Source: Arctopsyche grandis (Eukaryota; Arthropoda; Insecta; Trichoptera; Hydropsychidae). From it: a stretch of DNA of 64,000 bases. Positions 19,801 to 64,000 of the stretch are shown here, one piece after another. Within the stretch, counting starts at the first letter, position 1, and every line of letters starts with the position of its first letter. The notes under the pieces are model-generated. The model saw only the letters and a program-made list of their open reading frames with translations. It made no database searches and had not been told where the DNA came from. The translations under genes were made by a program, and so were the position numbers. The stretch is taken from contig NC_135358.1 of the NCBI RefSeq assembly GCF_051622035.1, forward strand, positions 7,853,001-7,917,000, written 5' to 3'.

Positions 19801-22219
19801 TCTCGCTGCTACATCGGCTGCATTGGCAGAACAACTTCAACTGCGTAGAAATAATGCTGGTCAACTTGGTAATTAACTAATTTTTTTTTCAATTTGAATT
19901 CTTTACGTGTATTTTTTTTATTATTACATGCATACATTATTTGTGCCATGACAGGAATTACCCCAAGGCGACACATATGGTTAGACTATTTTTTTTTTTA
20001 CATAAGTAGTGTTGCGTAGGGGTGGGTTTAGGATCCAAATCAATGGCCAAAGTCGCTTCACAGCATTTATTCAATGATTCAGGAGGTCCACACGAAACAG
20101 TCGCTCACTCCAGAACAATCTGATATACTGTGTGTACCTTCTTATAAAATATAAGTTGCCCATCACAGCATCCCCGATCCGTTGGCGTGTCTATTGTCTA
20201 GGCACGTAGGTTTACCCTGGCTAGTTGCACACACTCGACCCGGTTCTGAGAACTCTCGCGCATCCTTTGTCCGGATACTTACTCGGTAATCTGAGAGTCT
20301 CAATTGTTCACCCACGAATGCACTTAGACAATGTGTACTCTCTCCCATGTTCCCACGTTACAGTACGAACAATTTTCGAAACAACAGAACATAGAACTCA
20401 ATGGAGACATCTATGGAAAATTAACAAATTTTTTGATACACAGCAAATTTGCGAGAAATACATTAGGTAGGTAGCATTTTATATGATTCAACCTATTCGA
20501 GATGCTGATAAATCGAATTCGCGAGAAACTGACGGGGAGGATACCGATTTATTGTATCCGTCACAATAATTGAGCTAGACAAATCGGAAAATTCTAACAG
20601 GAGATGGTCGATCCGTGTTTTTAATAACCACAGGATCTCGCCAGCAGGGTATTTGGCTGGGACTTGAATCCAGAGTATGTGCAAGTATTTAATTTATATT
20701 TATTGTTATAGGTTTCCATGTGCAACCAGATGGTGTCGTCACTCAAGTTGAATCTGGAGGAGGAGCTGCTAGAGCTGGGCTACGGCAAGGTGCCCGTCTT
20801 GTTGAAATATGTACAGTAGCAGTATGCACTCTTTCACACGATCAAATGGTTGATTTATTGAAAACATCTGCGCCTGTTACCGTAACTGCCATCCCACCTC
20901 TTTCCAATGGCACAACACGAGGCTGTTGCACCGGTGCTGAATGTCCTGGGGCCAATGGATTAGTCATAAGTGGCGGACAATTACCGGGTCGACATCGCCG
21001 TCGGTATGAAAGAAGTTTCTCTCCACCTCGATCGAGTGCCAGTTCGGGTTACGGAACCGGAAGCTCCAGCAAAAGTTACTGTCCTCCTGATCTTTGGTCT
21101 ACAGACATGGCTCCGATTGAAGTTGAAAAATCACCAATAAATCTCGACTCCAGGGCATCATATAGATCGCCAGAAACTGACTATTCCATTTTGAGAAGCG
21201 ATACGTCGGATCCTTCGATATCTCTCCAGAGTGCGAAAGTTGTATTAGCTCGACGGCACTCCCAAGAAATAATCAGCGTTAATCACAGTGAATTTAGAGG
21301 AGACAAATTATGGCCGGATGGAAATGGCGAGCGTGTTGATTCTTCTCCACGTCCGCAGCAAAATTCTGGTTCTAGAAGAGGGACGCCTGCGAGTGGTCAT
21401 CAGTCCCCTGCGAGTACGGGGGAAGCTCGATTGAGAGTCCCGCGTACGCAGCGCCACAGCGCCGGTGGTAGTACCACTCTACAAGAAGATTTGATGAGAC
21501 TTATCAATCCAGACTATATTGAAAATGGAGGTAACACCAGGGAAGAAGGCATCCTTACACAAGCGCGACCCGCAACTGTAATATCGAGTACTTCTAGCGG
21601 AGGATCACCAGCTCCAAATCCACCTCTTCCATTACCAGATGCACGTCTCATGGATTGGCCTTCTCTTGTAGACACTGCAACGAGAGCAATGTTACAAGTA
21701 ATTACTTTATTTCTTGTGTTTTAGCTATTTTTACTCTATCTATGTACGTAGTAACAATAGATGAAGTTTTTTTTAATATAATGTTGCATCTTTTGTATTA
21801 TTTTGTTTAGATTTGTGAAGAACAGTATACTTCATTGGGTGATGGCGAAGGGAGTATAGCTTCGGGGGGTGCAGAAGGTCTCGATATTGGAGAATCTTGG
21901 AATTCACTAGGAAATGGTGCAGATATCCCCACGGGTCCAGAGTGTTGTTCATTGCGACGACAAGTTAATGAATTAGAAAATAAAGTCATTCGAGAAATAC
22001 GTACAAGACGAGCTTTAGAAGAAGAGGTAAGACATTTTTTCATCAGTTTTATTACATGTTGTATGGCGTCATGTATTTTAATAATGAAATTTTTTTATAT
22101 AATTCAAGGTTAAACGGCTAAGACACCACAATAGGCGTTTGCGTGAAGAAAGTATGAGGGCTGTACAACAATTACAGAGATTTACCAATTGGTTTTTTCA
22201 AACAGTAGATCGACAATAA
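13682..22219 (+). CDS. SIPA1L-like RapGAP/PDZ protein
   Basis: Eleven coding exons: 13682-14036, 17224-17646, 17727-17981, 18060-18345, 18423-19023, 19154-19289, 19364-19612, 19686-19868, 20712-21697, 21811-22026, 22109-22219. They join in frame to 1266 aa (human SIPA1L1 about 1800). The start is the first ATG after an in-frame stop at 13604. Residues 1-118 are Ser/Gly/Pro-rich with a Gly-Ser run. The conserved block ending [11 protein letters not shown] precedes the RapGAP domain (about 440-650), where the catalytic Asn-thumb helix reads [19 protein letters not shown] domain (about 829-905, [11 protein letters not shown]) and a Ser-rich tail follow. A C-terminal coiled coil (about 1180-1266) has heptads such as [22 protein letters not shown]. 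The family stimulates GTP hydrolysis on Rap1/Rap2 at junctions and synapses. Intron 2 is GC-AG. Candidate poly(A) signals lie at 22571 and 22935. Confidence 0.93.
14366..14679 (+). mobile_element. solo LTR, family 3, in SIPA1L intron 1
   Basis: Begins TGTAACTTGG and ends CCACGCAACA. The exact 4-bp repeat GTAC lies on both sides (14362-14365 and 14680-14683). Visible parts are a CCAAT-type box (about 14481), a TATAAATA box (about 14556) and AATAAAA (about 14619). The ending is like family 1. It looks whole as an LTR, with no internal region. Confidence 0.8.
15284..15551. mobile_element. piggyBac-type MITE, one end only
   Basis: Starts at a TTAA followed by TCCTTTGAGTGCTGACG. It shares its interior (TTGCAACAATATAAAATAAAC and neighbours) in inverted order with the complete element at 34831-35400. 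The right terminus is missing. It lies in a zone where a roughly 100-bp host repeat (GAAATTCGTTATAACA..., ending CTTCCTTAA) occurs three times, at about 15200, 15555 and 16105. Confidence 0.65.
15647..16096. mobile_element. MITE with TAAGGTGACCATTT ends
   Basis: Perfect 14-bp terminal inverted repeats TAAGGTGACCATTT / AAATGGTCACCTTA bound a 450-bp AT-rich segment. No convincing target duplication and no transposase. The superfamily is not assigned. It interrupts the repeat block mentioned at 15284-15551. Confidence 0.65.
16714..16859. mobile_element. short hAT MITE (CAGGGCTGTGGAGTC type)
   Basis: A 146-bp element beginning CAGGACTGTGGA and ending TCCACAGCCCTG. The flanking 8-mers GATTTCAC and GATTTAAC match at 7 of 8 positions, as for hAT. 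Its interior repeats GACTCCGAC/GACTCTGAC near both ends. It lies in intron 1 of the SIPA1L gene. A relative at 37812-39419 is split by a LINE. Confidence 0.75.
20010..20362 (-). mobile_element. solo LTR, family 1, in SIPA1L intron 8
   Basis: In minus orientation it starts TGTAACGTGGG and ends CACCCCTACGCAACA. The flanking 4-mers GTAG and GTAC match at three of four positions. About 353 bp, no internal region. It is an old copy by divergence from 2677-3130. It lies wholly within an intron, in antisense to the host gene. Confidence 0.72.
20395..20690 (-). mobile_element. decayed SINE remnant in SIPA1L intron 8
   Basis: Retains landmarks of the SINE family: GAGACATCTATG, TTCGAGATGCTGA, a GGAGATGGTCGATCC block corresponding to GGAAACGATCGACC in other copies, and CCAGCAGGGTATTTGG. 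Boundaries are blurred and the terminal hairpin is lost. It abuts the solo LTR. Confidence 0.55.
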
Positions 22220-26648: not shown

Positions 26649-29041
26649 TTATTCTCGCCTTATTCGTTTCGGACGAATACTGCAGTGTGCATTTGAATCG
26701 GTACCGTCGCCGCTCGCTTTCTGCTTCTTACTGACGAATACCTGGCTTTGAGCCGTCAAATGTAAAGATATCGCGTGCGTATTCAACTTTTCAGCGAGCA
26801 ACAGATCTTTCAGACCTTTCATCTTATGACTGTATAGAGTGGTTGTCGGGTGGCTGTTTGCCACAGCTTCCATCTCCTCGCCCAGCTCCTTGGGAGTGTT
26901 TTCCGATGACGCTGTCGCGGATATGGCCGAACTACTTTGTGACATTGAAACGTCATCGGCACTTTGTGACTCATTGTCAATGGAGGAATTATCTTTCGCT
27001 TCATCAGTACTTTCATCGTGGCATATTATGTTGACTTGAGCCCTAACATCGGCGTCGAATTTCGATATTGTGCTGACTAAAGGTTTCGCCCAGCCTATGT
27101 GCAATATCGGAGTTTGACTCTCTTCTTCCCACTTACAAATACCGTCGTAAAACCTTTAAAAAAAACACACCATTTAATTATGTAATTTGTATTAAAAAGA
27201 AAATACTATATATTATTGCGACAATACAAACCTTAAAAGGTGTGCAAAACACTGAGGATCTTTTAAAATTGACCGTGCCGAATGACCGGAACTTTCGATC
27301 TTCATTATTTGAGGGATTAGCTCGTTGGCTATTTCGATGAATTCTTTATATATTTCCTCATCGTCTCTAGAATAGTTGTATCTGCGGAATATAATTTCTT
27401 TTTAATAAAATAAAATGTATACATAGATTACGCATTGATTGAAATGTACGTACGATCTGATTACGTCTCCGGCATCGGCCCAACTGCCGAAAGCTTCTTT
27501 GTACATTTTATTGCGGAAATAATATCCACCTTGAAACGTGTAAGGATACACATGCCTGTTGCAATAGTTTTTCCTGGCACTTCCTATTGCTTCTTGGAAC
27601 AATTCAGAAGCATCGGGTCGAACTTTTCCATCATCATAACGTCTTACTTCTTCGAGCTCTCCCAAATTTCCCAAAGCCATAGGATAGCCGCTGAGGTAAC
27701 CTACAAAATATAATGTTTATTTTTATATAAATGCAAAAATACGTACATTGTAAAAATTATTTTATAATACCTTGCTCGTACAGAAGCCATAATAGGCGCT
27801 GTTGCATCAAAGCTACTTCAAACGCGTCCGTAGTAGAATCAATCGAAGGATTTATGGAAGAGACTAAAGCCGCAACTTCCATGTGTCTCGTACAAACTAC
27901 AGGATAGCCGGCTACATACAACCAAGATGTTGTAATAGCGCCAGCTCCGATGGGCTGACCGCGTTTGTCTTCATTCCCTTTGCCATGCCAAGTAACCTAA
28001 AAATTATATACATACATACATACATATATAGAATGCTACAACTAGTACTTTTGAAGTGTTTTTACAAATAAAATTGTATATAATTATATAGTAGACATAA
28101 TTTTCCAAATGAAATTCAATTTGGCAGTTTTTTTTTTAATAAATCGGGAACTAAAGCATTGTTTTTTTTAACTTTGATTCAAGATTATTTGGAATATCAA
28201 AGCTTTAGCTCCTAAGCTTAATTTTTAAACTAGCAACTTCGGCATTTGTAGTTGGGAAAGTCTTTTTAGCAACTTTCATGTTGATTACTTCTACTACTTT
28301 CTGCAATTTAGAAATGGAGGCAAGAAGCTAAAGCTTCAATATTTATAATAATAACAAATAAATAAAGTTTTGTTCGTGTATTAATGAAAAAACTGTTGGG
28401 TATTAAGCCCTATATGGAAAATTGTACAGTTATATGATAAAAAATAATACCTCGGCTGTTTCATTGCCATCTGGTCCGAAGACGACCCAAGCATGATCTT
28501 CTGACAGAGCCAAGTGTACATCGGTGTACCCGAGCACTTGACAAGCGGCTACAACAGCAAAGGCGACGCCAAAGCAATCCAATTTGCTACCTGTCAGGTA
28601 GCTGTAGAGGCTCTGAAGATGTGCACGGTCTTTGTAGTAACTCCGTGTTAATGAGTTCCAAATAACATCTGATACCTTCTTGATGAGGGCACGTGAGGCG
28701 GTCTGCAGATGTTTTGTTTTAGCCTCGTTGCCTAGGGCTCCTCTGATGATTCCGACGAATTTGTCATACAAGGTGCTCACCTCTTCGTATGTGATGACTG
28801 GGAAGCCAACTTTGACCAGTTTGTCGGATTTGGAATCGTTTTGATGGCGAGATTTGAGCGTTTGTTTATCTTGTTCGGGGTTCGAGGGTTTGCGTTCCGT
28901 CAGACTGTTCTCGATGGCTCCGACGACGATGGAGAGAAGGGCGAGGTCCGGCTCTTTCTCCACTTCGCTCCTGAAGAGCTCGATGAGACGGCACGCGCCA
29001 CTGATTGGGAAGCTGTCTCTGTCGGGGCCGCGGGACCACAT
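26649..29041 (-). CDS. Mnn1: menin
   Basis: Five exons on the minus strand: 28451-29041, 27771-27996, 27454-27700, 27232-27381, 26649-27153. They give 572 aa (human menin 610). The start is ATG at 29041 (MWSRGPDRDSF), leading into the family's LIELFRSEVEKEPDLALLS helix. Hallmarks are LALSEDHAWVVFGPDGNETA followed by VTWHGKGNED, AINPSIDS-like INPSIDSTTD, LGNLGELEEV, DYNY-type YNYSRDDEEIYKEF and CFAHLLRFYDGICKWEEES. These build the transglutaminase-like core and TPR-like palm that bind MLL/KMT2 and JunD N-terminal peptides. The C terminus keeps LTAQSQVFVSKKQK and a basic RPKRIRRE end, a likely nuclear signal. The acidic/Ser-rich linker in exon 5 replaces the human low-complexity insert. Menin is a nuclear scaffold of H3K4 methyltransferase complexes. 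Confidence 0.95.
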
Positions 29042-29990
29042 TTCGCGCCAAAACACTCGCGCCAAAAACTACATTTGACAACCACCAACTCGCCGGCAAA
29101 ACAACCCGGCTTTCCTAACCTCGCGTTGACATGCGCATTGCGCGCCACGAATACTGGCAACACTGGCTACTTTTCGATTTTTTACCACCCTATTTTAGAT
29201 TTATCGCATATAAAAGAAGAGGTTCGGTGATTACTGGTCACACAGTCACTAAAATCTCTATAACGGATCATCTGGCGGACGAATAGTCCATCATACTAAC
29301 GATAACTTCTAAGCCCGCTTTAAGGTCTGTTCATACCTAGCCAGCACGTACCGACTTCAGCAGGTATCCGGCCGTACGAAAAGTATTCTTTGGTACATTT
29401 TGTATGGGTATATTCATACCAACCGTCACGTTTACGCCACGGCAGGCTTACAGCAGTACCCGACATTTCCTGTTCATACCTTACAGCAACATCCGTTAAC
29501 GTATCGTATCCGTCTTTTTGGCCATCGTGGAGATATACACGCGAATTACGTGCCATGAGTCTGCCGCTTTGCTGTTTTGGACCAATTATCGATATTTTTT
29601 CGATTCAAATAAATTTAATAAAATGCACATCAAAACGCCTCCGTGCTTTTTTATTGCCTTCTTGAGCTTCTTCTTCCAACAACAGCGCGATTATACATAC
29701 TCTATGGGGGTAGGGCGAATGAAACGACTGGCTTTTTAATGCACACAAGTGTTATATTTGGCAGCCGGTAAATAAGTGGTAAAGCAATTTTTCAACGCGG
29801 CCGAGCTGGTCCCAACTCACAGGATGGAGAGCGAAACTCGACCATATCGTAGAGCCGTCATAAATCCAATTACCAGATTTGCGGTCCCTGACGAACCGAA
29901 AGAACTTTTGCAGCGAACAGTTGCAGTAGCTTGGTGAGTACACCCTGTTGTAACTTAATGGGCTTGGGTGCGGTTGCAAAGTTGTCGCAA
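29042..29990. other. upstream of menin; no gene recognised
   Basis: The first 130 bp hold the likely menin 5' UTR/promoter, GC-richer than its surroundings. At 29320-29560 there is an open minus frame of 78 codons, with TATGAACAG-like motifs repeated at its ends. It resembles no known protein and may be part of an unclassified repeat. Confidence 0.4.
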
Positions 29991-31795: not shown

Positions 31796-37321
<5,526 letters not shown>

Positions 37322-43487: not shown

Positions 43488-46400
43488 TTAATTTGGAGCT
43501 GGCGTTGTCGCTCCGGGTAATTCTGATACTGTGGAAGCAACATCTTCACTTTCTGCTCTGCCTGGTCCTTCGGTGCTGTCTCTCCACAAAGCCCTATAAC
43601 GTTTGGCTATCGTTTCCCAATCGGCCACATTTTCAATGCGAGTAGTACTGGAAAAACTCAATTGTGACCCGAGAGGACTTAAATGGACAACTGACAAAGC
43701 TACAGAATCTGAAATTATGCATTTGGATGAAAATTGAAGTAATCACAAAATTAAGCAAATACATATGAAACGTAAACCAGCACCTTTTGGTACAACTTGA
43801 GTCTTTTTTACTTTCGACAACCACTTTGCGCCAGCTTTGGTCCTCGCGCTCATTTGATTCCTCTGCATTCCGATGAGATGAACCAAACTTGGTCGTTTTC
43901 GTTTGGCCATCCTCGCCTATTTAAAGCAAAAAAGAACATGAATATTCTACATACATATGTATTTTCCATTATTTTTTTTCACCAAATACAAATAGCAAAC
44001 CTTGCACATCGCAATGAGCCACATTAGCCAAGTTGTTACAAGATTCAATGGTGACGGTGCAGTAGTCGTTCGATGCATGTTCCTGATGAGCTTGGAGAGG
44101 CCATATTTCCATTCGATATCAGATTGCGCCTGCAAGCATCACATTATTAGACAACTCGACACAAACAATGCTTACACAAAATCTTAAATACTAATAATAC
44201 ATACTCTAATTATTATGATTATCATTATAAGTTGAAATTCAGCGTGTGGTTTTTACTTTATAAGTGACATATATAGGTCAATTAGTAAGGAACTATTGAA
44301 TTGGCAGAGTTCAGAACCTGCACCGATCGCTGAATTGCACAAATTTTGTATAGACTGTGCTGACCTCGGTAAATATACGATGTAGTTTTTATAAATATAG
44401 AACTTTAAAATGAAATAAAACATATAAAAATCGTGATAATGACCATGGTATTGACTTTATTAGAAGATAATGCTATGCCATTAGTGTTTAAATACTGTAT
44501 TTGGCATATGGATGCCGTGGCTGGTTCGAATAAAGCGCAATTTGTCAATTTGGAAGTCCAATTTTCGACCGCTTTTTCGAATAGCTCGGGCCGTATATCG
44601 GCAATAATGCAGCGAAGGCTTCCAAGTCATTCATCGTTTCTGGTTTATCAGCGTAGACTAACGACTTCACATATCCCCATATAAGGTTAAATCACGCGAC
44701 CTTGGAAGCCAATTCACGACTGTAAAATTGACGTAGCGCATGGTAAGTTTCGCGAACGGAACCATGAATTCCGAAATAAATTAATGTTATGCCACTAGGG
44801 TTTAAATATGATATTGGGTATATGGACGCCGCGGCTGATTCGAATAAAGCGCAATATGGAAGTCCAATTTTCGACCACTTTTTCGAGCAGCTGTGGCCGT
44901 ATATCGGCAATAACGTGGCGAAGGCTTCCAAGTCGTTCATCGTCTCTAGTTTATCGGCATAGACTAACGACTTCACATATCCCTATATAAGGTTAAACCA
45001 CGTGATCTTGCAGGCCAATTCACGACTGTAACATGGACGTAGCGCATGGCATGTAACTTTCGCGAACGGATCCATGATTTTCGAAATAAATTTACACAAT
45101 TTGAAAGCGTTTATCTGGTGTAAGTCGATTCATGGTAAAATGGCAAACCAAACTAAGCACAAATCATATATATGTAGGATATTAATATAAAATGATTATA
45201 ATTATGTATAATGATGTGGCTCATGCCGAACAGTTGGTATTATGCACTGTATGTATTAATGTTAAGGTTGGTACTACCGAACCGTGTCCGAGCGACAGTA
45301 GTAGGCGTCGCGCCTTGACGCGCCGGTTGCGTACGCGCATCGATTACCTATTGTTCTAAATAAACAAATAAGATTGAATTAAGATCGCTTTTACTTGTCT
45401 CTCTCTCTCCTGCAATCCTCCCTACTACCCAGTGGACTTCCTATATATATGATGTCAAATTGGCTGTTGATTGAAAAGTGTTCGAAAAGGAAACCTCTAA
45501 ACAAAGCACCTTTTATACGAGTAGTATCATATGTTATGTGTGATTTTAATAAAAGTTCTAGAATGAAATGCTTATAGTATGTAAAGTGAGATGCGGATGG
45601 AGGCGTCGTTGGTATTGTCGCGTCCGCACATTACCTGTATCCGTTGGTACGTGTCTGACATCATAGCAATGAGCAGATTGATCAGAACGACCACGGAGAC
45701 CAACATATATATTCCGAAGACGATTTTGTAAAGGTACTCGGTCCAGGCCGGCTGCTCCACCGGCGGCGATGCGTGCGTCTGCTCGGTGGTGGTCTGACCG
45801 AACACGGCGAAGAATAGCAGCTCGAACGACAGAATGGGATTCATCTTGACTGAAATCAGAAATGGAAAACAGGGCGAATGCCCGCAGTGAACGCGTTGCC
45901 CAAAATTACCTGAATGCGTTGGTATGTGTCTGACATCATAGCAATGAGCAGGTTAATGAGGACGACGACGGACACCAACAAGTAGACGCCGAATACCAAC
46001 TTGAAGAGGCTCTCGGTCCATTCGGGCCGCGATTCCGGCGCGTAGTTGATGTCGTCGGGGGTGGTGTGCCCGAACACGGCGAAAAACAACTTCTCAAAAG
46101 CCTCCACCGGTGTCATTTTCGCTAGAGGGAAAGTCACCAACAACAAAGGCCCATCAGTTCCTCTTTCGTGAGGAAAAACTTCTCAACAAACAGTTACAAC
46201 AGGCTGACAAGGCCGCTAACACACAACAAGCCGTCCAACAAACAAATAAAAAACAATAATGCCAAAAAATCAACATAAAAATCGTCAGTCGCCACTTCAA
46301 ATTTACACAGATTTTTCAAAATCAAAAAGTGGCAGTCTACAGTTAACTCTTAAAAAGCTGACCAGACATCATAGACTTTATAATGTAATTCACATTGAAA

Positions 46401-49400
46401 GATAAACTAATCAACAAATTAGTATTCATATAAAAAGGAACATTATTTTATTCTTCCATAACCAATGTTATGCTTTTTATTTTTTATACTTCTAAATAAA
46501 CGAAGACGGTTTTGCAAAACAGTATCCAACCCATATGATTTAATAATTATAAACACATTTACAAACGCAGGCTTTGAACTGTATATTTTTTCTCATTATC
46601 CATTTGCCCGTACTAATTTTCGCGGTACGTTTTCAGCGAATTTGTAAATCGAGTTTTCGACCATAAATATATATTGCAATATTTATTCAAATGACCGAAT
46701 ATGTCAATTGACAACTGAAGTATTTTTATTTTTAAATAGTGAATCACGCCTGTAGTATTTTGTTTACACAGTGAATCACGCCAGTTTACGCATGACGTAT
46801 ATAGCGGTCAACCGTGGAGAAACGGTTATTATTGTACATATTAACGCTTAAATAAATTAAAAATGAATATAAAATAGACAATTTTCACCAGATTATTAAC
46901 TGAAGACATACACATTAAAAACAAACCGTATAAATAATAAATTTCTTCTAAAAATAAAAATCTGTCACAACATAATAACTTTGATGAATGTTGCACAAAA
47001 AAAATTTTTGTCAATTTTTAATAAATGTAAATGTATGTATAATTAAAATTGTTTATTATTTTTATTGATTTATTAATCCCCAAATTTTATAATTTACAAA
47101 ATTTTGCTCATATGGGTTGAACCATTTTTGCAGAACTACATACATATGTATATACGTCCGAAAAAATAAGCACACGTTATATAGAAAAGAAAATGTAAAT
47201 TTTTCCATATAAAAAGTTAAAATATCACAATTCACAGACAAATACATATGTTACTCTAAAAGTCTATTTCTAATTCTAAATTTCTAAAAATTCCAATAGT
47301 TTGACCTCTTTATAGGGAAAAAACAACATTTTCCACACACAGTCACACACGTGTGTAACACTTCGCCAGTTATGAAACTGTTTTAGACGGAACAGCTTCA
47401 ATGAACTCACTCATTGAATCTACAAATCATAGAAAAATCTGAAGCGACAACGAACGACAACAATCAATCAAAAAACCAGAAATAAAAAACATCAACAGTC
47501 AACAAACGTCCAAGAACGCGAAACAAACAAAAACATTCCAAAACACAAAACAATCAAACACAAAAAAAAGTTAAAATAAAAGAAAGCATGAAACGTAAAG
47601 AGAATGGATTGCCAAGACGATGAGTAACATACTGGGAGCATCCCTGTGCGACGAGCGGGCGAAGGTGGCGATAGGGGAGGTTTTTGGACGCAGTGTTGCG
47701 CCTCTACTGAACACAGCCTAAAATTCAAAACTGAACGCAACATTTGCCTAAATCGTACCAGTTATTGAATAAACGTGCGACCTGTAACAAAACAAAAACT
47801 AAAAACAAACAAGGCTCATTCCATCGGAGTGGGGTGCATCGACATATTCGATGATCAACTGGATGCGCCGCAAGTTTCACAATCAAAACAAAAAGCGCAC
47901 ATTCTAACCAAAAATAATAAAAAAAAACAACAACAACAAAAATGTATTCATCTAGAACAAGACAGCTAAAGTAAAATAAACAACATCAAAACTAACATCG
48001 ACAAGTAAAAACCTTCTTACAAATAAAACACCATGCTATGAGAAGTAAAAACGATGATTTTCATTCCGGGCGGGATGCAACAAACTTGCAATTGTAATTT
48101 TTTATTGATGTAGAGTTGTTACAATTTTTTTTTTTGATTTTGGATATTTATCAAAAAGCATTCCATAGGTAAAAGTAGGTTGTGAGGGTGAATTATGTGG
48201 GGGGTCGCATTCCAACACCAACATTCTAGTGAGGCGGATGCAAGCAGCGGTGGCTCAACGGTGGTCCGCGTGCCTCTAGAGGGCCCGCGTACCGCCGTTT
48301 GCCACCTCTGCCCACCCTAACATTCCCTGACATGTAACTTACTCCCGGGTCTGTGCTTTCTCCTGTAGCTATCCGTGTAAAAAGGTTTTTTCGGAGACGT
48401 ATCGATCCACTCTACGTCATTCGGAATCCCTCGTTTCGCTCGAACATTGGACATTGAATCTAATTGCATAAGTCAGTTATATAAATGATATTCATTAAAA
48501 AAAACCAATCCTCAAATCATCACTGGAGCCTCTATCTTATACTATACAACGAACGAGCAAAAAAAACATTTTTTCAAATAAAAGTTGAATCTAATATATA
48601 ATTTCGAAAGAGACTTTGTAACTATAGTTGGGTGGGAAACAAAAACAAATTAAAGTTTCCATGACGACAGATAAATTCGCCTCCGGCCCCAGAGGGCGCC
48701 GGGGGCGCAGCCGCCGGATTCTGGTATACATATAATTTCGAAAGAGACTTAGTATATATGTTTCTTTGTTCGTGACAGTCAATTTATTAAAAAAAAAAAC
48801 AAATGAATATTCTAATAAATCTATATAAAATAAAGCTATTCAAATAAATTTAATAAAATTTTTTCTATAAGATTAGTCATGTTTAAGCGGTTTATATAAC
48901 AAATACTGAGCGAAGCCGGGTAAAACCACTAGTCTTATATAATTTTGAAAGAGACTTTGTATGTAACTATGTACATATGTAAGGTTTGGGTGGGAGCATC
49001 GAAAACAAATGAAAGTTTCCATGACGACGATATCGATATCGTTGAATATATATTTTTTCGATTCAAATAAACTTAATAAAAAAGCAAATTAATGTCTACT
49101 ATTAGATTGTTTTGCCATGTTTAAAATATTTATAATATAAATACCGAGCGAAGCTGGGTAGAACCACTAATCTTTGATAAATTCGAGTACTGATATGTAT
49201 GTTCATATGTACTTTTACAGTAGTCATTCAGATTCGTATATGGTTGAATATTTAGTAGTACTAATTTTAGAAAGGAACTACATACTAAAAATCACCGTAA
49301 AAGAGTGACAGTTTATGTATGTATGTATATCCAAACCAGGTCAAATTCCAGTAGAAAAAGAATGGACTTGGTTTGGCATTATAACCACAACAATGGCATC

Positions 49401-52400
49401 CGAAACGGGCTAGTGATAGACTTGAGTCCAATAACCGTATATTTCTTAAGTTGACAGCTCTAGGAGCAGGTCTGGTTTCAATTATCAGTTTGGGTTGACC
49501 TCGATTGAAAAGAATTTATTCAAAAGTATTTCTGTAGTGCTGCTGTTTAGACTTGGATATTTGTGAATCCAAGTCGATCGTTTCCTATCAGAGTTTGCCA
49601 ATTTATCTACATAATTGCATTGTTGAAACGGTTCCTCATCAAATTAGCAAAACTATCCTACCTACCACACATGTCACAACTATTTGACTATGATTTCAAA
49701 TTTATAATCTATAAATGTATGTATATATGTACAAGTTTAATACGATAGGTGTCACTCGGGGACTGAATTACATTACTGAATATTCATATCATGAGAGAGT
49801 TAAAGATTAAACAAAAAGAGCTCAACAGTTTATAGACCCAGAAGATAGAGACTCCAGTACTCCAACAAGTATACACATTTTATATATTTGAACAGTCCAT
49901 AGTAAAACTTATAAAAGGTATAAGATAGAATTGAAGTAATAAATAAGGAAGTATATTTTACCGTCTGAGAAGTATTCTTTAGGCCTGGGTCTAGATAGTC
50001 TGCGCACTTCTTCGGGCGTGAAGTTCTTGAACGGCTGATTCAGAGCGACGATGTGCATCGAGAACCCGAAGACGAATATGGCCAGCACGGCCAAGAACCT
50101 CGCCAAGTCCTTCATCAGATCGCCGATGATGATGGCCCAAGGGCCGAACAGGTAGTGAAACGACAGGAAGTCCAGTATTTGAACACACGCCAATAGGAAC
50201 GACAGTGCGAAGAACTGATTGCGGCAGTACATCAGCGTGGGCCAGTACGGCTTGTCGATGAACAGCATCCCGGAGACGTGGGCTGCCACACCGCACATCC
50301 CGAAAAGCAGAACAGCCAGTTTGATCCAGCCCAGGCCCGACTTTTCGCTGGGGTTCGTCAGCTCGAAGAGTAGCAGACCACTTAACCAGATGAGCAAACA
50401 CCACTCGTACCAGTACGGCAGGAGGCTGGGACGCACCACCGGATAGATTGGCGTTATGCCGACTATCATCAGCAGCACCATCAGGTATATGTGCGACGTT
50501 AAATACGACATGAATTTTATGATTGGCACTTTGTTGTATTTGTGGCCGAGTGGCAGTGTGAACACGACCCACACGGGAGGGCAAATGAGGAAACCGATGA
50601 ACAGGAACATAGTCCTCCAGGGGGCCCACGTTAAACTTCCCCGCCACAATTCCTAAAAATCAAAATTCAAAATGAGACGAAGAACACACTCGATCGGTTC
50701 AGTTGTTATATTACATGCATGCACTTACTTATAAATGAGATTTCTAGAACATTCATACAAAACTTAAAGGAGTCATAGACGATGCGACACTTTGCCAAAT
50801 TATCTCTCGTAGCTGTTGTTGGTGTCTTTATATGTAAGACGAGTGAAAAATTGCTCCAACTCCAAACAAAAAGCATGAGCTGGATTCAGATGGGGAATGT
50901 TGTTAGCTTTGAGATCCTCAGTTGATCATATCAAAGATTTGAAATATGTAGATAACGGAAAATATGCTGAAAAAAGGTCTTGGGTTTACGTGTTCGGACG
51001 TCTATCTGGTTACATTATTTCTTAAAGGGTACGATTTAACGGTGAGTTAAAAAAAAATAACTTTGCTCCTTAGAATGAATTATTTGCGCATTAGAATAAA
51101 ATAAATTATATATAAAATAAATATATATCAGTCAAATAAAAAATGTTACAATGAGCAATAATTTATTTGTATGTAGTATGAAATTGAAAAAAAAAATTCG
51201 ATCATTTAACAATTAAAAAATGCGCAGAAAAAATCCCATGATTTCAACTACAACAAATTTTCAGTTTAATTGGCAAATTCTAAATTCGCAAGTTATAAAG
51301 ATTAAACACCTATGCTATTGAATGGGCCTACTTGGACGGTGGCCGGTTGAGACATTGCCGATCATATATGCGAGATCTAATGCTCAACGTTAATGCGCAT
51401 TTAATTCACTTTAGATTGCTTTATATTTTTTCTGTTGTAAAAGTAACTAAAATTGTTGACCTAATTAAAACAACGGATTTGTAATTTTTCAAAAGATCAT
51501 GTGTTTTTTTATTTACTAAAGGTTTTTAATTTTATTGCTTATTTTATTTTTTTAAGTATTTTTTGTTATGTTTAAAATATTATATAATATCAATATACGA
51601 CCTTTTATACGTTCTTTTATTTTATAATCTAATTATAATTTTTCTATTGTTGTTTTTTTTTAAATATATGAGAATTTTTTTTTAAATTTTACATTTATAT
51701 TTTTAAATGATATTATATATTTATTAATTCACAAAAATTTTATCAAATTACGATAAATGCGCATTTAAATTATTTCCTTTCTTAAACGTCCTTGAATGAT
51801 TTTGGCGAACTCAAGCTAGATATATTTACGTCGTTTATATACCAAAGATTTATTTATAATGTGTTAGGCAACTTGTCGCATAGAATATGACTCCTTTAGT
51901 CCACTGTCATTTTACAAGGCATAGCCTTCTAGAAATTACCTATCTTTTACCTGGAGGTATCTTTGTACTACGGTATGGGCTATGACTTCCTTCTGTTCAT
52001 TTTCTATTAAAACATCTAAAAATTCCATATTTCTACGATCAGTGGCAGTGAGGATGCGTCCAGCTGAATCCGACCCAGCCGCTAGAGCTAACAGTTCTGT
52101 GGCCATCGATTCACATTGCTTGCCAGCTGATATCAAATCTTTGGCTCGTTCTTTTTCCTACAACACCCAAACAAAAATCAATAAATTTATTCAGTTGAAA
52201 CATATGCACGGTATATATGGTTGGATTTGTACGCACCTTAGAAGATAAATTAATGAAAATATTAGATAATTTGGCAGCTGCATCTACTGGTGCGGGTGAA
52301 ACTAAAATGAACTCTTCTATCGGCTTATTATTGTAGTTCTTCGAACACACCATTAAATTATATACAAATCTACGATCTTCCATCAACGAGTACGTGTCGT

Positions 52401-58400: not shown

Positions 58401-61400
58401 GGCATAAGTCCGCTATTCTTAATTTCGAGAAATATTTCTGTAAAACATTGAATATAATGTTTTGCGTTTAGCAATATTTAAAATTACTCCTGGCCTGTAA
58501 TACGTTTATTCTGCTTTTCCAAGATTCTGGACATACCGAATTAAAATGAGTGATAACAATTTGTGAATTAAGTAAAACAGAAATAGTGATTTTGGAACTG
58601 ACTTCCGCCACTTTTAAATATAACCGCTCATATACATATTCGTAGTGTCAAAGTGCTCATATTGCAAGGTTTTTTTTGAATGGGTTAACTTAATGAAACT
58701 TAACCTGATCTATATACATACATATGTACATATATCATAGAACTAATGATAAAGATAAATTGAACTATTTTTATAAAAAGTTTTATTATTTAATAAAAAA
58801 AAGTTAATAATTTCTAATAAAAGCACATGTTTAAGTAAAAAAAAATACTACTCTTATTAGTAAAAATTTTTCAATAGCTGAAATTGTTTAGATAAATTCT
58901 CACTATATAAAAAAATTAAATGAAAAATGAAAATAAGACCTAATATTATATTACATATATTATATAACCTATGTACATACATACCAAATAAACGCGGATA
59001 AACTTATTATGGGTTTTCTTGATTGTATCATATTATTTTAATTATTATCCATTACATTACACCAGAATTTTCTAAATTTAATTGAATTGTATTTGAAGAA
59101 AGACGATTTAAAACTCTTCCAAAAGAAATCTAATAATAAGATAAAATTTATTATTTTTTTAATTACTTTATAGTAAGGTCAACTTCTGTTATTTCAAGTA
59201 ACATTGTTTTTTTTTGTAAAAAATTAAAAAGGTACGAAAATTTAATCAAAAAATTCCGGAAAAATTTATTCTTATGAGAATTCCAATACAGAAATTTTCC
59301 CCAGAAAACGATTCAAACTAGAATACAATAAGATATTTTCCGGAAATTTTCAGCTTTACAACCCCTGTGTGCAATGATGGCGAAGGTTGGGGGTAGGAGT
59401 GGGCGGTGACAGAGGGCGGCGCATCCGAGCGCCAGGCACCGCCTTCTACCCCTACCCACTGTACCATTACCACCCCCATTTCATCCCCCTCACAATTGTC
59501 ACTTACTACAAAAGCATCTTCAAGTACAACACGAGAAAAAAAAAACACCTTTCTCCAAATCTACATATCTCAAAAACTCTTATTACATAGAAAATATAGG
59601 TAGTCAATATGTATGTACATACATATGTATATGTATATGCATATGTAAACTTTACCCCGTCTGCTTTAGTTTTGATATCCTTTCCGGCCGCAGTCAAAAG
59701 AGCTCTCAATATACTGGTTGCAGTTCCGGTTTGCCTACTCGCCACTAGATGCACTGCGGTTTGTTGTCGACTCTAAAATCAATAAGGATTCAAATAAATA
59801 AAAACAACGAAGTATTTTTATACACATATCTACTTATAATATTAACAAAATATCAGTATCGTGATAAAAATTTTAAACATTATCAATTTATCAATACTCA
59901 TATGTATGTATATATAAATATATACATATATATATATATATTTTCATCTGTTATTTCTATGTTTTATTTTTATTTTATTTTTATATACCAGGAAGGCCTA
60001 ACAGGTAGCCCCAATGCGCCTTCCTGGCCAATCATAAACATCGATAAACAATTTATAGAGAAAATTTACACAGCATAATGTGAATATATTTGACAAAAGT
60101 TTTAGCATTTTTGCATTAAATTCGAGATGCTGAAAACTCGAATTATACGAGAAATAGGACAAGGTTGCCAATATATTGGAACCGTTTCAACGAAATCAAA
60201 TAAATTGACAAACTCTGATAGAAAACAATCGACCTGGAGTCAGGCATATCTAAGGTCTGGCCAGCAGTGTTGGGCCAGGGATTGACCCTGTGACCACTCA
60301 GTTGAAAGCATTACACGATAAACACTGATCTATGCTGCTGGTTTGGTATTTTGAACTTAATCGATCTGTCAGCCTATTGATACAGACGCTATTTGAATCT
60401 CAACAAGCATCAATATCGGCTGCTGTCGTCGTCTTTATATATTCATCAAATTCGCATTTTTATTTAATTTAATTAAAAAAAATAATCCTTGCAAATGAGG
60501 GTAGGTGGCCAATTTGGTAATCAAATAAATTGACAAACTTTAATAGGAAACGATCGACCTGGAGTCCCATACATATATATCCAAAGTCTGGCCAGCAAAA
60601 CCGGGTCAGGGATTGAACCTGTGACCCTTTAGTTGTTAGCATTTAGTTGTTAGTTAGCGAAATCAAATAAGTTGGCAAACTCTGATAGGAAACGATCGAC
60701 CTGGAGTCACATACATTTTATTTTATTTTATTATATACATACATATGTACATATGTATATACCAGGAAGGACTATCAAGTTAGCCCAATTACAAACAACA
60801 CAGCATTTTTATTACACAAGTCACTGAATCACGAGACACTGAAAACTCGAAATTAACGAGACATCTATGAATATTAGCCTGTACATATATTTTATTGTAT
60901 ATTAATCATATTCAAATAGTGATGACATAGTAGGTAGGAAGGTATTTAGCCATCGACGAACTGTTTCACCAATGAAATCAGAAGCATTGGCAAACTCCGA
61001 TCGAAAACGATCGACCTGGAGTCACATACATATATCCAAGTCTGACCAGCAGCAACCAGTGGGACTCGAACTCGTGACCACTATGTTCAAATAATGGTGA
61101 CATAGTGGGTAGGACAGTTTTCACCAATTTGATTGGAAGTCACAAATATCCAAGTCTGACCAGCAGCATTACAGATATACTCAGAATAAATTATTTTCGA
61201 GGTCAACTCACGGGATTGAACCCGGCGCCTCTCACCACCCAGCCACGTTGTTGGCAATATCCAAAGTCTGAACAGCAAAACTGGGCCAGAGATCGAACCT
61301 GTGACCCTTCAGTCGTTACCATTATTCTCTAACTACTGAGCTATGATGCTGATTTAATGAGTTTACTCATAAGTTTTGAAGGCTAAGTCCACAATTTGGT

Positions 61401-62775
61401 ACCAATATACATATGTACGTATAAATATAAGATACATGGGTATCGATACAGATTACATTATGTACGGGGTTTTTAACTGTTGCGCCATACACACACATTA
61501 CTTTTTCGAGCCGATTCGCAGAAGGCAAAAGCACACTCGTTAAATGGCGAATGTTTCGATTATATCTGTTACATTGTACATTGATATAATAGTGGAGCAG
61601 GCGATAAACATATTCCGGTTGTAAATTCGGTACACACATACGTACATAATAATATCCGGCATGTCAAATTGGCGAATTGAAATGCGTAAAAGCAAATCGG
61701 CTACGACTGCGCTTTTCGGTGAAATTTTCAACTCGAGCATCCGGTTCCGGTCGTACCACCGAGTGTCAGCGGCGCCTAACTTTTTACAACTTTTCGTGAC
61801 TTTAATTTTGATAAACTTACGCCGGCCCCTCGTATAATTCACGCGCCGAGTTCCCAACTTTCGGTCGACCGATAAACCTACATAGATAAAGACTACCCTT
61901 TATCTGCGCTTCTCCCGTTCCAAATTTCACAGTTTTATGGGTGTTGAGAGCTCATTAAAAATAATGGAAGCATGCATACTTATGCCCATACAATACACGT
62001 CTAAAAATCATATCTAATATATAATTTCGAAAGAGACTTTGTATGTAAGTAAATATCGTTGGCTGGAAAATGGTTGGGAACTTCGAAAACAAGTTAAAAT
62101 GTCCATGACGACATGGGGACGGGGTACGGGGGGTGCCGGGGGTGAAGGCCCGGAGGGCGCCGGATTCTGATATAATATATAATACATCTAATATATAATT
62201 TCAAAAGAGACTTTGTAAGTTAACTATAGTTGGTTGGAAATCGAAAACAAGCCAGTTTCTACGACGATTCGATTGGTTGAATTTTTTTTTTCGATTCATA
62301 AATTTAATAAAAAAACAAATGAATTTGCAAGTACTATATATAGTAACTGCAAATAGCCAATAATTTGCACATATAGTACCGGCAAATAGCCACAACCATT
62401 AAATTAACGTTTGCATAATCTAATATATATGGAATTTCGAAAGAGACTTTGTATGTAAGTATGTTTGTAAGTATTTTTGGTTAGGAACTTCGTATACAAC
62501 ACATAGTTTCTATGATGACGATTCGATATATATTTTTTTCGATTAAAATAAAGTTAATAAAAAAACGAATGAATATTTACTATCAGATTTGCCATGTTTA
62601 AGCTGTTTATATTACAAATACTGAGCGAAGCCAGGTAAAACTAGTTATATATTATATATATGTGTATACCAACCCCTCCGGTAGAAAAAGCATCAACTCC
62701 TTTCTTGGACAGTAGAAGTTTGACCACATCTTCTCTGGAGAACATAGCCGACATGTGGAGGACATTGTAATTATC
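43488..62775 (-). CDS. nompC: nompC / TRPN mechanosensitive channel (5' end off window)
   Basis: Sixteen exons in the main reading: 62674-62775, 59656-59772, 55515-55607, 55229-55442, 54965-55161, 54797-54895, 54420-54722, 53120-54347, 52850-53049, 52237-52773, 51951-52157, 49962-50652, then 45910-46121 or 45635-45849, 44001-44129, 43784-43916, 43488-43708. All phases agree, giving the last 1560 residues. Residues 1 to about 980 are ankyrin repeats (TPLHLAA units). A linker follows with IENEQKEVIAHTVVQRYLQ, then six membrane spans from ELWRGSLTWAPW through LINLLIAMMSDTYQRIQ, then the TRP helix and a C-terminal tail. The family is a tetrameric TRP channel whose ankyrin spring ties the pore to microtubules in touch and hearing neurons. 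The first roughly 170 residues lie to the right of the window. Confidence 0.96.
44470..45150 (-). mobile_element. internally deleted mariner-like element, tandem duplicate
   Basis: Two copies with a 306-bp period. In each, the minus strand reads a transposase N terminus (MNRLTPDKRFQIV, then HGSVRET in the other copy) followed shortly by the C-terminal stretch KSLVYADKLETMNDLEAF and KKWSKIGL. The catalytic middle is missing, so the fusion arose by internal deletion before duplication. It lies in a nompC intron. Stops in several frames; non-functional. Confidence 0.7.
45635..45849 (-). CDS. nompC: nompC alternative pore/S6 exon, version b (GQTT)
   Basis: Encodes VKMNPILSFELLFFAVFGQT, then the outer pore with TEQTHASPPVEQPAWTEYLY, then S6 VFGIYMLVSVVVLINLLIAM and the TRP-box start. 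It starts after a TTTCAG acceptor and ends CAG|GTAATG. It is 215 nt; entry needs two bases and exit is in phase 0. This is the same slot as the exon 60 nt upstream, so the two cannot both be used in frame. The sequence is closer to the canonical fly NOMPC pore as I recall it (FAVFGQTTTEQ). Confidence 0.9.
45910..46121 (-). CDS. nompC: nompC alternative pore/S6 exon, version a (GHTT)
   Basis: Encodes AKMTPVEAFEKLFFAVFGHT, then PDDINYAPESRPEWTESLFK, then VFGVYLLVSVVVLINLLIAM. It is 212 nt, bounded by CTAG and CAG|GTAATT. S6 and the TRP-box entry are nearly identical to version b, while the pore helix, filter edge and outer turret differ. It is the upstream member of the pair. Only a 60-nt intron separates it from version b. 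Confidence 0.9.
48343..48459 (-). CDS. nompC: predicted optional nompC exon, 39 codons
   Basis: Minus strand: acceptor ATTAG, then 117 nt without stop, then a consensus GTAAGT donor. With the split codon left by exon 49962-50652 it reads DSMSNVRAKRGIPNDVEWID, then TSPKKPFYTDSYRRKHRPG. Entry and exit phases are both 1, so inclusion keeps frame before either pore exon. It is GC-richer than the surrounding intron. It would insert a basic segment between S5 and the pore helix. I know of no matching domain. Confidence 0.6.
48590..48932 (+). mobile_element. Helitron-type element, copy 1 of a tandem
   Basis: Starts TCTAATATATAATTTCG and ends GAGCGAAGCCGGGTAAAACC then ACTAG, followed by T. TC...CTAG ends and insertion next to T fit Helitrons. 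A partial second 5' end (ATAATTTCGAAAGAGAC) lies inside at about 48734, so the copy is composite. No coding capacity. Confidence 0.72.
48933..49170 (+). mobile_element. Helitron-type element, copy 2, head to tail
   Basis: Starts TCTTATATAATTTTG immediately after the CTAG of copy 1, and ends GAGCGAAGCTGGGTAGAACC then ACTAA (CTRR). 238 bp, non-autonomous, in a nompC intron. Confidence 0.72.
49455..49720 (+). mobile_element. SINE fragment, plus orientation
   Basis: Shows the SINE body in the order GTTGACCTCGATTG, TAGTGCTGCTG, GTCGATCGTTTCCTATCAGA, GTTGAAACGGTTCC, CCTACCTACCACACATGTCA. The tRNA-like start and terminal hairpin are missing. It is in the same intron as the Helitron tandem, with orientation opposite to most SINE copies here. 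Confidence 0.65.
49962..50652 (-). CDS. nompC: nompC exon: S1 to S5
   Basis: A 691-nt exon encoding pre-S1 through S5, with FIGFLICPPVWVVFTLPLGH, KVPIIKFMSYLTSHIYLM, ELTNPSEKSGLGWIK and FLAVLAIFVFGFSMHIVAL recognisable. It ends in phase 1 (GAC G), the phase required by the optional exon and by both pore exons. GC content is well above the flanking introns. Confidence 0.95.
50653..51950. other. nompC intron, nothing recognised
   Basis: AT-rich intron between the linker exon and the S1-S5 exon. No repeat family identified, no alternative exon seen. Confidence 0.5.
53120..54347 (-). CDS. nompC: nompC large ankyrin exon
   Basis: 1228 nt coding about 12 ankyrin repeats without interruption, including SSVGWTPLLIACHRGHLELV, LLANHARVDVFDTEGRSALH and KQTPLHLAAASGQIEVCRSL. 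These are close to the fly protein. The exon is preceded by a 72-nt intron that is itself stop-free in frame. Confidence 0.95.
55515..55838 (-). CDS. nompC: predicted alternative first exon of nompC
   Basis: The ankyrin exon 55515-55607 can be extended upstream in frame to ATG at 55838 (second ATG 55829 in better context, CAAAATGTC). A TAA directly precedes the first ATG. The extra 77 codons read MCKMSIRGEQRSSSSSDDNS, then a Thr/Ser/Lys segment, KFSLNLTKTDEISYIELNKR and AMVKDWKKIMDDILVFQ, joining RGKIPLLLAVE without a splice. This gives a 1564-residue protein lacking the first ankyrin repeats. The shorter fly NOMPC form of 1619 residues may be comparable, but I cannot confirm its N terminus from memory. 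Confidence 0.65.
55839..59655. other. nompC intron upstream of the alternative first exon
   Basis: Long AT-rich intron. The 200 bp next to 55838 would be the promoter of the short form. A GC-rich island lies at 59380-59490 (GGGCGGCGCATCCGAGCGCC region) of unknown role. A minus-strand open frame at 57286-57615 is unrecognised. No repeat family stands out. Confidence 0.45.
59988..60345 (-). mobile_element. SINE, variant subfamily
   Basis: Terminal hairpin CCAGGAAGGCC...GCGCCTTCCTGG at 59988-60027, then TTCGAGATGCTGAAAACTCG, GATAGAAAACAATCGACCTG, and a tRNA-like end with ATTGACCCTGTGACC. In minus orientation this is head to hairpin. It lies in the nompC intron and starts a cluster running to 61360. 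Confidence 0.72.
60490..61360 (-). mobile_element. cluster of SINE pieces, nested or end to end
   Basis: At least four partial copies: 60490-60655, 60660-60715, 60760-61090 (hairpin with its right arm lost, body complete) and 61091-61355. Each shows GATCGACCTGGAGTC-type and GTCTGACCAGCAG blocks, and several show GATTGAACC/GAACCC B-box-like ends. Borders between copies are approximate. Confidence 0.65.
61361..62012. other. nompC intron, unique-looking segment
   Basis: Less AT-rich than its surroundings between about 61640 and 61930. Open minus frames are not recognised and have no splice support. Nothing else seen. Confidence 0.4.
62013..62644 (+). mobile_element. Helitron-type elements, three 5' ends and one 3' end
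   Basis: TCTAATATATAATTTC-type starts occur at 62013, 62187 and 62419, but only one GAGCGAAGCCAGGTAAAACTAG end is found, closing at 62644. This is either repeated end-to-end insertion with loss of ends or replication-slip tandem growth. No coding capacity. Confidence 0.68.
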
Positions 62776-62893
62776 CTGAAAACATTAAAAACAATCAAAT
62801 TAATTCAAATTTTACAAAATCGTACATATCTATTATATAATCGCCTAAATCTGTGTGTGTATTATTTTTTTCATTTTTTTAATTACATTTATA

Positions 62894-63318
62894 CCAGAAA
62901 GGCCTTACAGGTAAACCCCAATGCGCCTTCCTGGCCAATTACAAACAATACAGAATTTTTTTTATTATACAAATCACTGAATTACGAGACACTGAAAACT
63001 CGCAAATTAACGAGACATCTATGAATTTTACATACAGTTTATTGTACATTAATCATACTCAAATAGTGGTGACATAGTAGGTAGGAAGGATTTTAACCAA
63101 TTTTTAATCGGAAACCGTTTCAACAATAAAGTCAGAGAAAATTGGCAAACTCTGATAGGAAACGATAGACCTGGAGTCACAAATATCGAGGTCTGACCAG
63201 CAGTGCTACAGATATACTCAGAAAAATACTTTTCAGTCGAGGTCAGCTCATGGGATCGAACCCGGCGCCTCTCGGTGTTAGGCAGAAGCTTTACGACCGA
63301 GCTTTGCTGCTGGCTAAA
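62894..63318 (-). mobile_element. full-length tRNA-derived SINE (best copy)
   Basis: Minus orientation. tRNA-like head 63240-63318 with GCTCGGTCGTAAAGC (A-box-like) and GGGTTCGATCCC (B box, matches GGTTCRANNCC). Body with GAAACGGTTTCCGATT and CTCGTTAATTTGCGAG. 3' hairpin 62894-62934. AT-rich tail to the left. About 425 bp. Transcribed by RNA polymerase III if active. Confidence 0.82.
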
Positions 63319-63421
63319 TATGTACATATGTCTGTAAGTAATGTAATCTCCGCAGTATAATAGTCGTTTCGATTCAACATACGTCACAGTTAAAACACTG
63401 CTAACATGTTGTACGAATATA

Positions 63422-63430
<9 letters not shown>

Positions 63431-63472
<42 letters not shown>
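63431..63472. repeat. (TA)n microsatellite
   Basis: Alternating T and A run adjoining TTTATTTATTTA repeats at the tail of the LINE copy that follows. Confidence 0.9.
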
Positions 63473-63476
<4 letters not shown>

Positions 63477-63496
63477 TTATTTATTTAATAGTTTTG

Positions 63497-64000
63497 GACC
63501 ATTGTGGCATTACAGGAAGAACCTAATGCGCCACAATGGCCTACATTTGAAAAATATATAAAAACATGATATAAAAACAAGTAAACTGTAAATAAAGGAA
63601 AAAAGCAAAAGCAGAAAACATGGTAAAATAAAATTACAAAAAAAGTAACAAAAGGAAAATAATACATCATTCAGAGAGAAAAAAATAAATAACAAAAGTG
63701 TAAAAATTAAAAATAAAATCCATAAATCCCATTCTTTGTTTACACTGATCAAAATTAAAATAGTATATAAAAATGTACAAAAGAGAAAGAAAAAATAAAA
63801 TAAAATAAAACAAAATATGAATAAAAAATAAAATCACAGCGAGGCCCAAATGGAAGAGAGTAGATTAAGATTCCACTCATTCATCACATTCAAATTAAGA
63901 AAGTAATGATGAGCGCAGGTTACCAGATAAATATGTTAAGATAATATCCGACAATCTACGCTCCCCAAGGTGGAAAATATCACATTCAGGGACAGCAGCA
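63497..64000 (-). mobile_element. LINE 3' end, second copy, runs off window
   Basis: The terminal hairpin CCATTGTGGC...GCCACAATGG at 63499-63539 is followed leftwards by a TTTATT-rich tail. From about 63840 the sequence matches the LINE at 38005 (CCCAAATGGAAGAGAGT, ATGATGAGCGCAG, AAGGTGGAAAATATCACATT). The 3' UTR is longer and A-rich. The coding part lies beyond the right edge. Confidence 0.75.

Follow-up and report, generated by a model that had tools for sequence, protein, structure and literature searches.

Mutually exclusive homologous exons are familiar from insect channel and receptor genes, including nAChR alpha6, para, cacophony and Rdl. For nAChR alpha6, PMC1919356 refers to duplicated exons many times. 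Among TRP channels, the available sections of a paper on TRPM3 describe alpha1 and alpha2 forms in which splicing alters the pore loop and hence ion selectivity (PMC7959729). For fly nompC, several alternately spliced isoforms with a shared N-terminus have been predicted and observed, according to the accessible part of PMC2882365. The accessible parts of papers on the TRP genes of Bactrocera and Pieris (PMC6137742, PMC7143563) give splice forms for other TRP genes and none for nompC. In the part of the open-licence PMC literature searched, we found no mutually exclusive exons in a TRPN gene or covering an entire TRP pore with S6, and nothing on splicing of an insect TRP filter. A partial search of the same open-licence literature, which took in available sections of PMC1949825, PMC10379062 and PMC2753570, returned no report of two nompC pore exons, and PMC8134069 contains none of the terms exon, isoform or splic. 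The pair described here may already be listed by automatic annotation pipelines.

The nompC locus and its two pore exons

The window analysed is a 64,000-nucleotide stretch of the Arctopsyche grandis genome (NC_135358.1 7,853,001-7,917,000, assembly GCF_051622035.1), and all positions below are in window numbering. On its minus strand, from ~43700 to at least ~59700, lies the nompC (TRPN) gene. For the ankyrin part, the match to the fly NOMPC chain 5vkq scores 915 bits; the S1-S5 exon matches residues 1258-1488 of that chain with 389 bits (E 8e-116). These matches bear out the assignment to nompC made in an earlier note on this DNA. The exons are ordered on one strand, encoding a long ankyrin array and then a six-helix TRP channel, the architecture of a TRPN protein, with NOMPC as the closest match. 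Pfam Ank is found in the ankyrin part, and each pore exon matches Pfam Ion_trans; taken alone, a 159-residue stretch of S1-S5 gave no Pfam family at 0.001. Judged by its sequence, the gene is an insect-type nompC encoding a TRPN channel, for which opening by force is predicted. Among the neighbouring genes Pfam places TBC1D23; a Rap-GAP and a PDZ domain, near each other on one strand; menin; and a protein kinase, which we take to resemble Chk1. The features of the pore region and the neighbouring-gene regions are as follows.

49962..50652, minus strand: shared upstream exon encoding S1-S5, with a phase 1 end at acgGTAAAA
46122..49961, minus strand: intron upstream of exon A, 3840 nt
45910..46121, minus strand: exon A, 212 nt, encoding an alternative pore helix, filter FGHTTPDD, outer loop and S6; acceptor CTCTAG, donor cagGTAATT
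45850..45909, minus strand: intron between exons A and B, 60 nt
45635..45849, minus strand: exon B, 215 nt, encoding an alternative pore helix, filter FGQTTTEQ, outer loop and S6; acceptor TTTCAG, donor cagGTAATG
44130..45634, minus strand: intron downstream of exon B, 1505 nt
44001..44129, minus strand: shared downstream exon encoding the TRP helix (AQSDIEW...), phase 0 entry
390-2438, 18391-21724, 27402-29068 and 33603-33881: neighbouring-gene regions, from Pfam

The exon lengths, the 60-nt gap and the AG...GT borders given in the earlier note are correct to the base, and the two filter strings and the differing outer loop were found as it had described them. Its proposal that each exon holds a pore helix, filter, outer loop and S6 is borne out by the sequence and by matches to Pfam Ion_trans (E 7e-7 for A and 1.8e-8 for B); both exons also match fly NOMPC 5vkq (E 2e-21 and 4.3e-27, respectively). 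S6 had been called nearly identical between the two; strictly, this holds over the final 24 codons, where 23 of 24 residues agree, and the earlier part of S6 carries conservative differences. An in-frame AG upstream of exon A, at 46160, would add 13 residues to the exon without a stop; as an alternative acceptor it is not favoured, its tract being purine-rich. A tandem direct repeat of ~315 nt, 85% identical, occupies 44468-45092 within the intron downstream of exon B.

In a tblastn search of the window with exon A, exon B was recovered at E = 1e-28 and the best hit other than A and B had E = 0.72, so the similarity of the two exons lies far above chance. No third pore exon was detected by tblastn in the window, including the introns at 46122..49961 and 44130..45634. 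When 43000-64000 was compared with itself by blastn on the coding strand (E up to 1e-3), a comparison that is blind to diverged copies and to ankyrin repeats and in which 59800-64000 holds no assigned exon, A paired with B and no other doubled exon emerged, the remaining matches being repeats outside the assigned exons. When the 476-Mb, 189-contig genome was searched at the DNA level with exon B, B and A alone were recovered among the best candidates scored. Viral contigs were scanned with A and with B, and prokaryote genomes with the S1-S5 exon; the pattern matches obtained included no confirmed relative. These comparisons bear on the idea that two haplotypes or gene copies have been joined in tandem by the assembly, for which we found no support: A and B differ at 60 of 210 aligned bases (33 of these at third positions), no other assigned exon was paired in the self-comparison and the genome search yielded no further copy among its best candidates, and we consider such an artefact extremely unlikely.

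Reading frame, splice sites and probable exclusive use

The last base of the upstream exon is the first of a codon, and 212 and 215 both leave a remainder of 2 on division by 3, so exactly one of A and B restores the frame. In silico, A alone or B alone (junctions 49962-46121, 49962-45849, 45910-44129 and 45635-44129) gives one open frame each. Joining both exons (45910-45849) yields ...QRIQSR* and skipping both (49962-44129) yields ...FSDGAI*, each product stopping no more than four codons past the junction. The claim that both exons enter in phase 1 and leave in phase 0, with double use breaking the frame, is thereby upheld. An early stop with exons still downstream is the usual trigger of nonsense-mediated decay, which would act as a backstop against double products.

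The arrangement can be set against the criteria of Kassiopeia, which in the available part of PMC3923563 are homologous neighbouring exons with a similarity of at least 15% of the self score and a length difference of at most 20 residues. A and B score 0.67-0.68 of self under our own BLOSUM62 scoring and differ in length by 1 residue, within those defaults; they have compatible GT-AG splice sites and the same frame, and their double inclusion is unproductive in silico. Homology, length, splice sites, frame, purifying selection (below) and the frame break on double use or skipping thus all agree with the mutually exclusive design that the earlier note had proposed. Mutually exclusive use of A and B is well supported by the design of the locus as read from its sequence, and we think it very probable that this nompC gene carries a tandem-duplicated pore/S6 exon of which exactly one copy enters each productive mRNA, giving two TRPN channels. 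Each exon would be used in some cells or stages. It could also be proposed that double use or skipping serves as an off switch, in which an early stop and mRNA decay tune the amount of channel and not its type, as might be read from the stops that follow both faulty junctions; such a switch requires no second intact pore, however, and a constrained S6 combined with a changed outer loop points to two proteins, so that this function appears very unlikely as the explanation of the pair.

The splice sites of both exons fall inside the range seen at the gene's remaining sites or exceed it. Matches to the donor consensus number 8 for A and 7 for B, against 5-8 for 11 other donors of the gene, and the acceptor pyrimidine fraction is 0.71 for A and 0.82 for B, against 0.41-0.76 for 11 other acceptors; two further junctions with doubtful ends were excluded from this scoring. 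The eight other short introns with assigned ends measure 67-84 nt, more than the 60 nt of the intron between A and B, although alternative ends are possible for some introns and would bring lengths down to 40-63 nt. The only YTNAY branch-like sites in the A/B intron are placed 22 nt after the donor or 6 nt before the acceptor. Five of the eight other short introns, by contrast, have one that is no closer than 46 nt to the donor and 17-24 nt away from the acceptor; the remaining three likewise lack a well-placed branch-like site. Double products might therefore be blocked mainly by crowding within the 60-nt intron, an argument that the three introns without a site and the shorter alternative intron ends reduce to a hint. 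RNA structure was rejected as a cause of exclusivity, since the predicted fold of the intron with its flanks is no better than that of shuffled sequences (z 0.68).

Selection on the two exons and comparison with fly NOMPC

The proteins encoded by A and B are identical in 48 of 71 alignment columns. By the NG86 method, dN between the two exons is 0.231 and dS is 1.12 (a rough figure, as it rests on 48 synonymous sites), giving dN/dS of 0.206. The ratio falls to 0.021 over the last 24 codons, from the end of S6 to the start of the TRP region, and is ~1.5 over the 15 aligned outer-loop codons, a small sample. As far as these substitution patterns indicate, both exons are under purifying selection. 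A 26-nt identical stretch in the S6 end was considered as a trace of gene conversion; a run of six identical codons occurs in 30% of shuffles, and there is thus no case for it.

We also weighed whether only one exon is in use, the other being a duplicate that has recently fallen out of use and has not yet decayed. A neutral simulation was run with 5000 copies from each exon, in which survival meant an open frame, both splice dinucleotides and the observed identity. There were no survivors at 0.56 substitutions per site (half of dS), 0.0006-0.0008 survived at 0.3 and 0.04 at 0.2, and about 30% of copies still looked intact at 0.1, corresponding to very recent decay. Only a recent loss of use could therefore hide, and it would often leave no trace; exon A, moreover, departs from fly at 14 positions at which B and fly agree, with one position the other way, which makes A the odd one of the two. 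Against disuse, dS of 1.1 combined with S6-end dN/dS of 0.02 means that constraint acted on A and B alike over most of the time since they diverged, and the splice sites of both exons are as good as those elsewhere in the gene. On balance, the use of one exon only is unlikely, and two intact interchangeable pore exons would probably mean two kinds of touch channel.

Exon B matches 59 of 69 aligned residues of the fly NOMPC pore segment 1490-1565 (5vkq), including FGQTTTEQT, and by this likeness is the counterpart of the fly exon. Exon A matches fly at 47 of 70 residues and B at 48 of 70, and so is about equally distant from both. In a three-way alignment with 69 ungapped columns (9 further columns are gapped), 45 columns are common to all three sequences; A alone deviates in 14, B alone in 1 and fly alone in 3, and the other 6 have three different residues. 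These counts suggest one of two histories: a duplication that predates the split from flies, or a later one followed by much faster change in A. Equal rates would favour the older date, fly being the one outgroup sequence. That the pore switch is ancient, predating the split of this line from flies, is a tentative reading to which we give somewhat less than an even chance. Were it right, many insects would have two classes of TRPN touch and hearing channel, differing in permeation and selected according to cell type, and fly studies of a single isoform would have covered only half of the system. At residue 1551 of 5vkq, within S6, the deposited chain reads LIQLLIAMM, as against LINLLIAMM in both window exons. 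That asparagine is common in TRP channels, which makes the Q of the deposited chain odd.

The two predicted channels and known systems

A common ankyrin spring, S1-S5 region, lower gate and TRP helix are predicted for both channels. They would differ where the pore helix begins, at the edge of the filter and in the outer loop. Exchanging A for B alters the pore-helix start, the residues at the filter edge (H/Q, P/T, DD/EQ) and the outer loop as a whole, with four acidic residues in the loop of A and two in that of B. In fly NOMPC, the available sections of PMC8186909 place a narrow gate at I1554 and have the TRP domain turn about W1572. Counted from the 5vkq alignment numbering, I1554 belongs to the LLIAMM that both S6 ends have in common, and the tryptophan of AQSDIEW, encoded by the shared downstream exon, would correspond to W1572. 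With gate and pivot in common parts and the changes at the filter edge and outer loop, the force-gating machinery would be constant and the ion path would vary. Force gating would then be unchanged between A and B channels. The A pore, with an acidic PDD after the filter, His in place of Gln and the richer complement of loop acidic residues, could alter divalent-ion handling, proton sensitivity or blocker binding; for a change in divalent handling or block, the TRPM3 pore-loop variants serve as a precedent (PMC7959729).

Single-sequence AlphaFold models of both exons begin with a helix, which a loop connects to the long helix of S6, with mean pLDDT of 76 and 77 and pTM of 0.44 and 0.52. In a fold search with the model of A, TRPC channels were listed first and made up five of seven matches; the best E was 0.49 and none was significant, so the search adds nothing firm.

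NOMPC is a leading model of a tethered force-gated channel, and two natural pores that share spring, gate and TRP helix would separate the determinants of force sensitivity from those of ion selectivity. Two pores could also explain differing currents among the touch, stretch and hearing neurons of one animal. The swappable segments, ~71 residues each, are suited to exchange in one construct.

Among the systems compared, TRPM3 alpha1/alpha2 is likewise a TRP channel with a pore loop altered by splicing. There, a 12-residue insertion is present or absent, whereas in nompC the swap would involve two complete homologous pore/S6 exons. Drosophila NOMPC isoform L (PDB 5vkq) is the orthologous channel with a B-like pore segment, and its solved chain contains only the B-type pore. 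As in nAChR alpha6, para, cacophony and Rdl, the exons described here are tandem and homologous, of similar length and frame, and would be used one per mRNA. Mutually exclusive channel exons are a known kind, and the interest of this probable member lies in the position of its switch, at the nompC pore.
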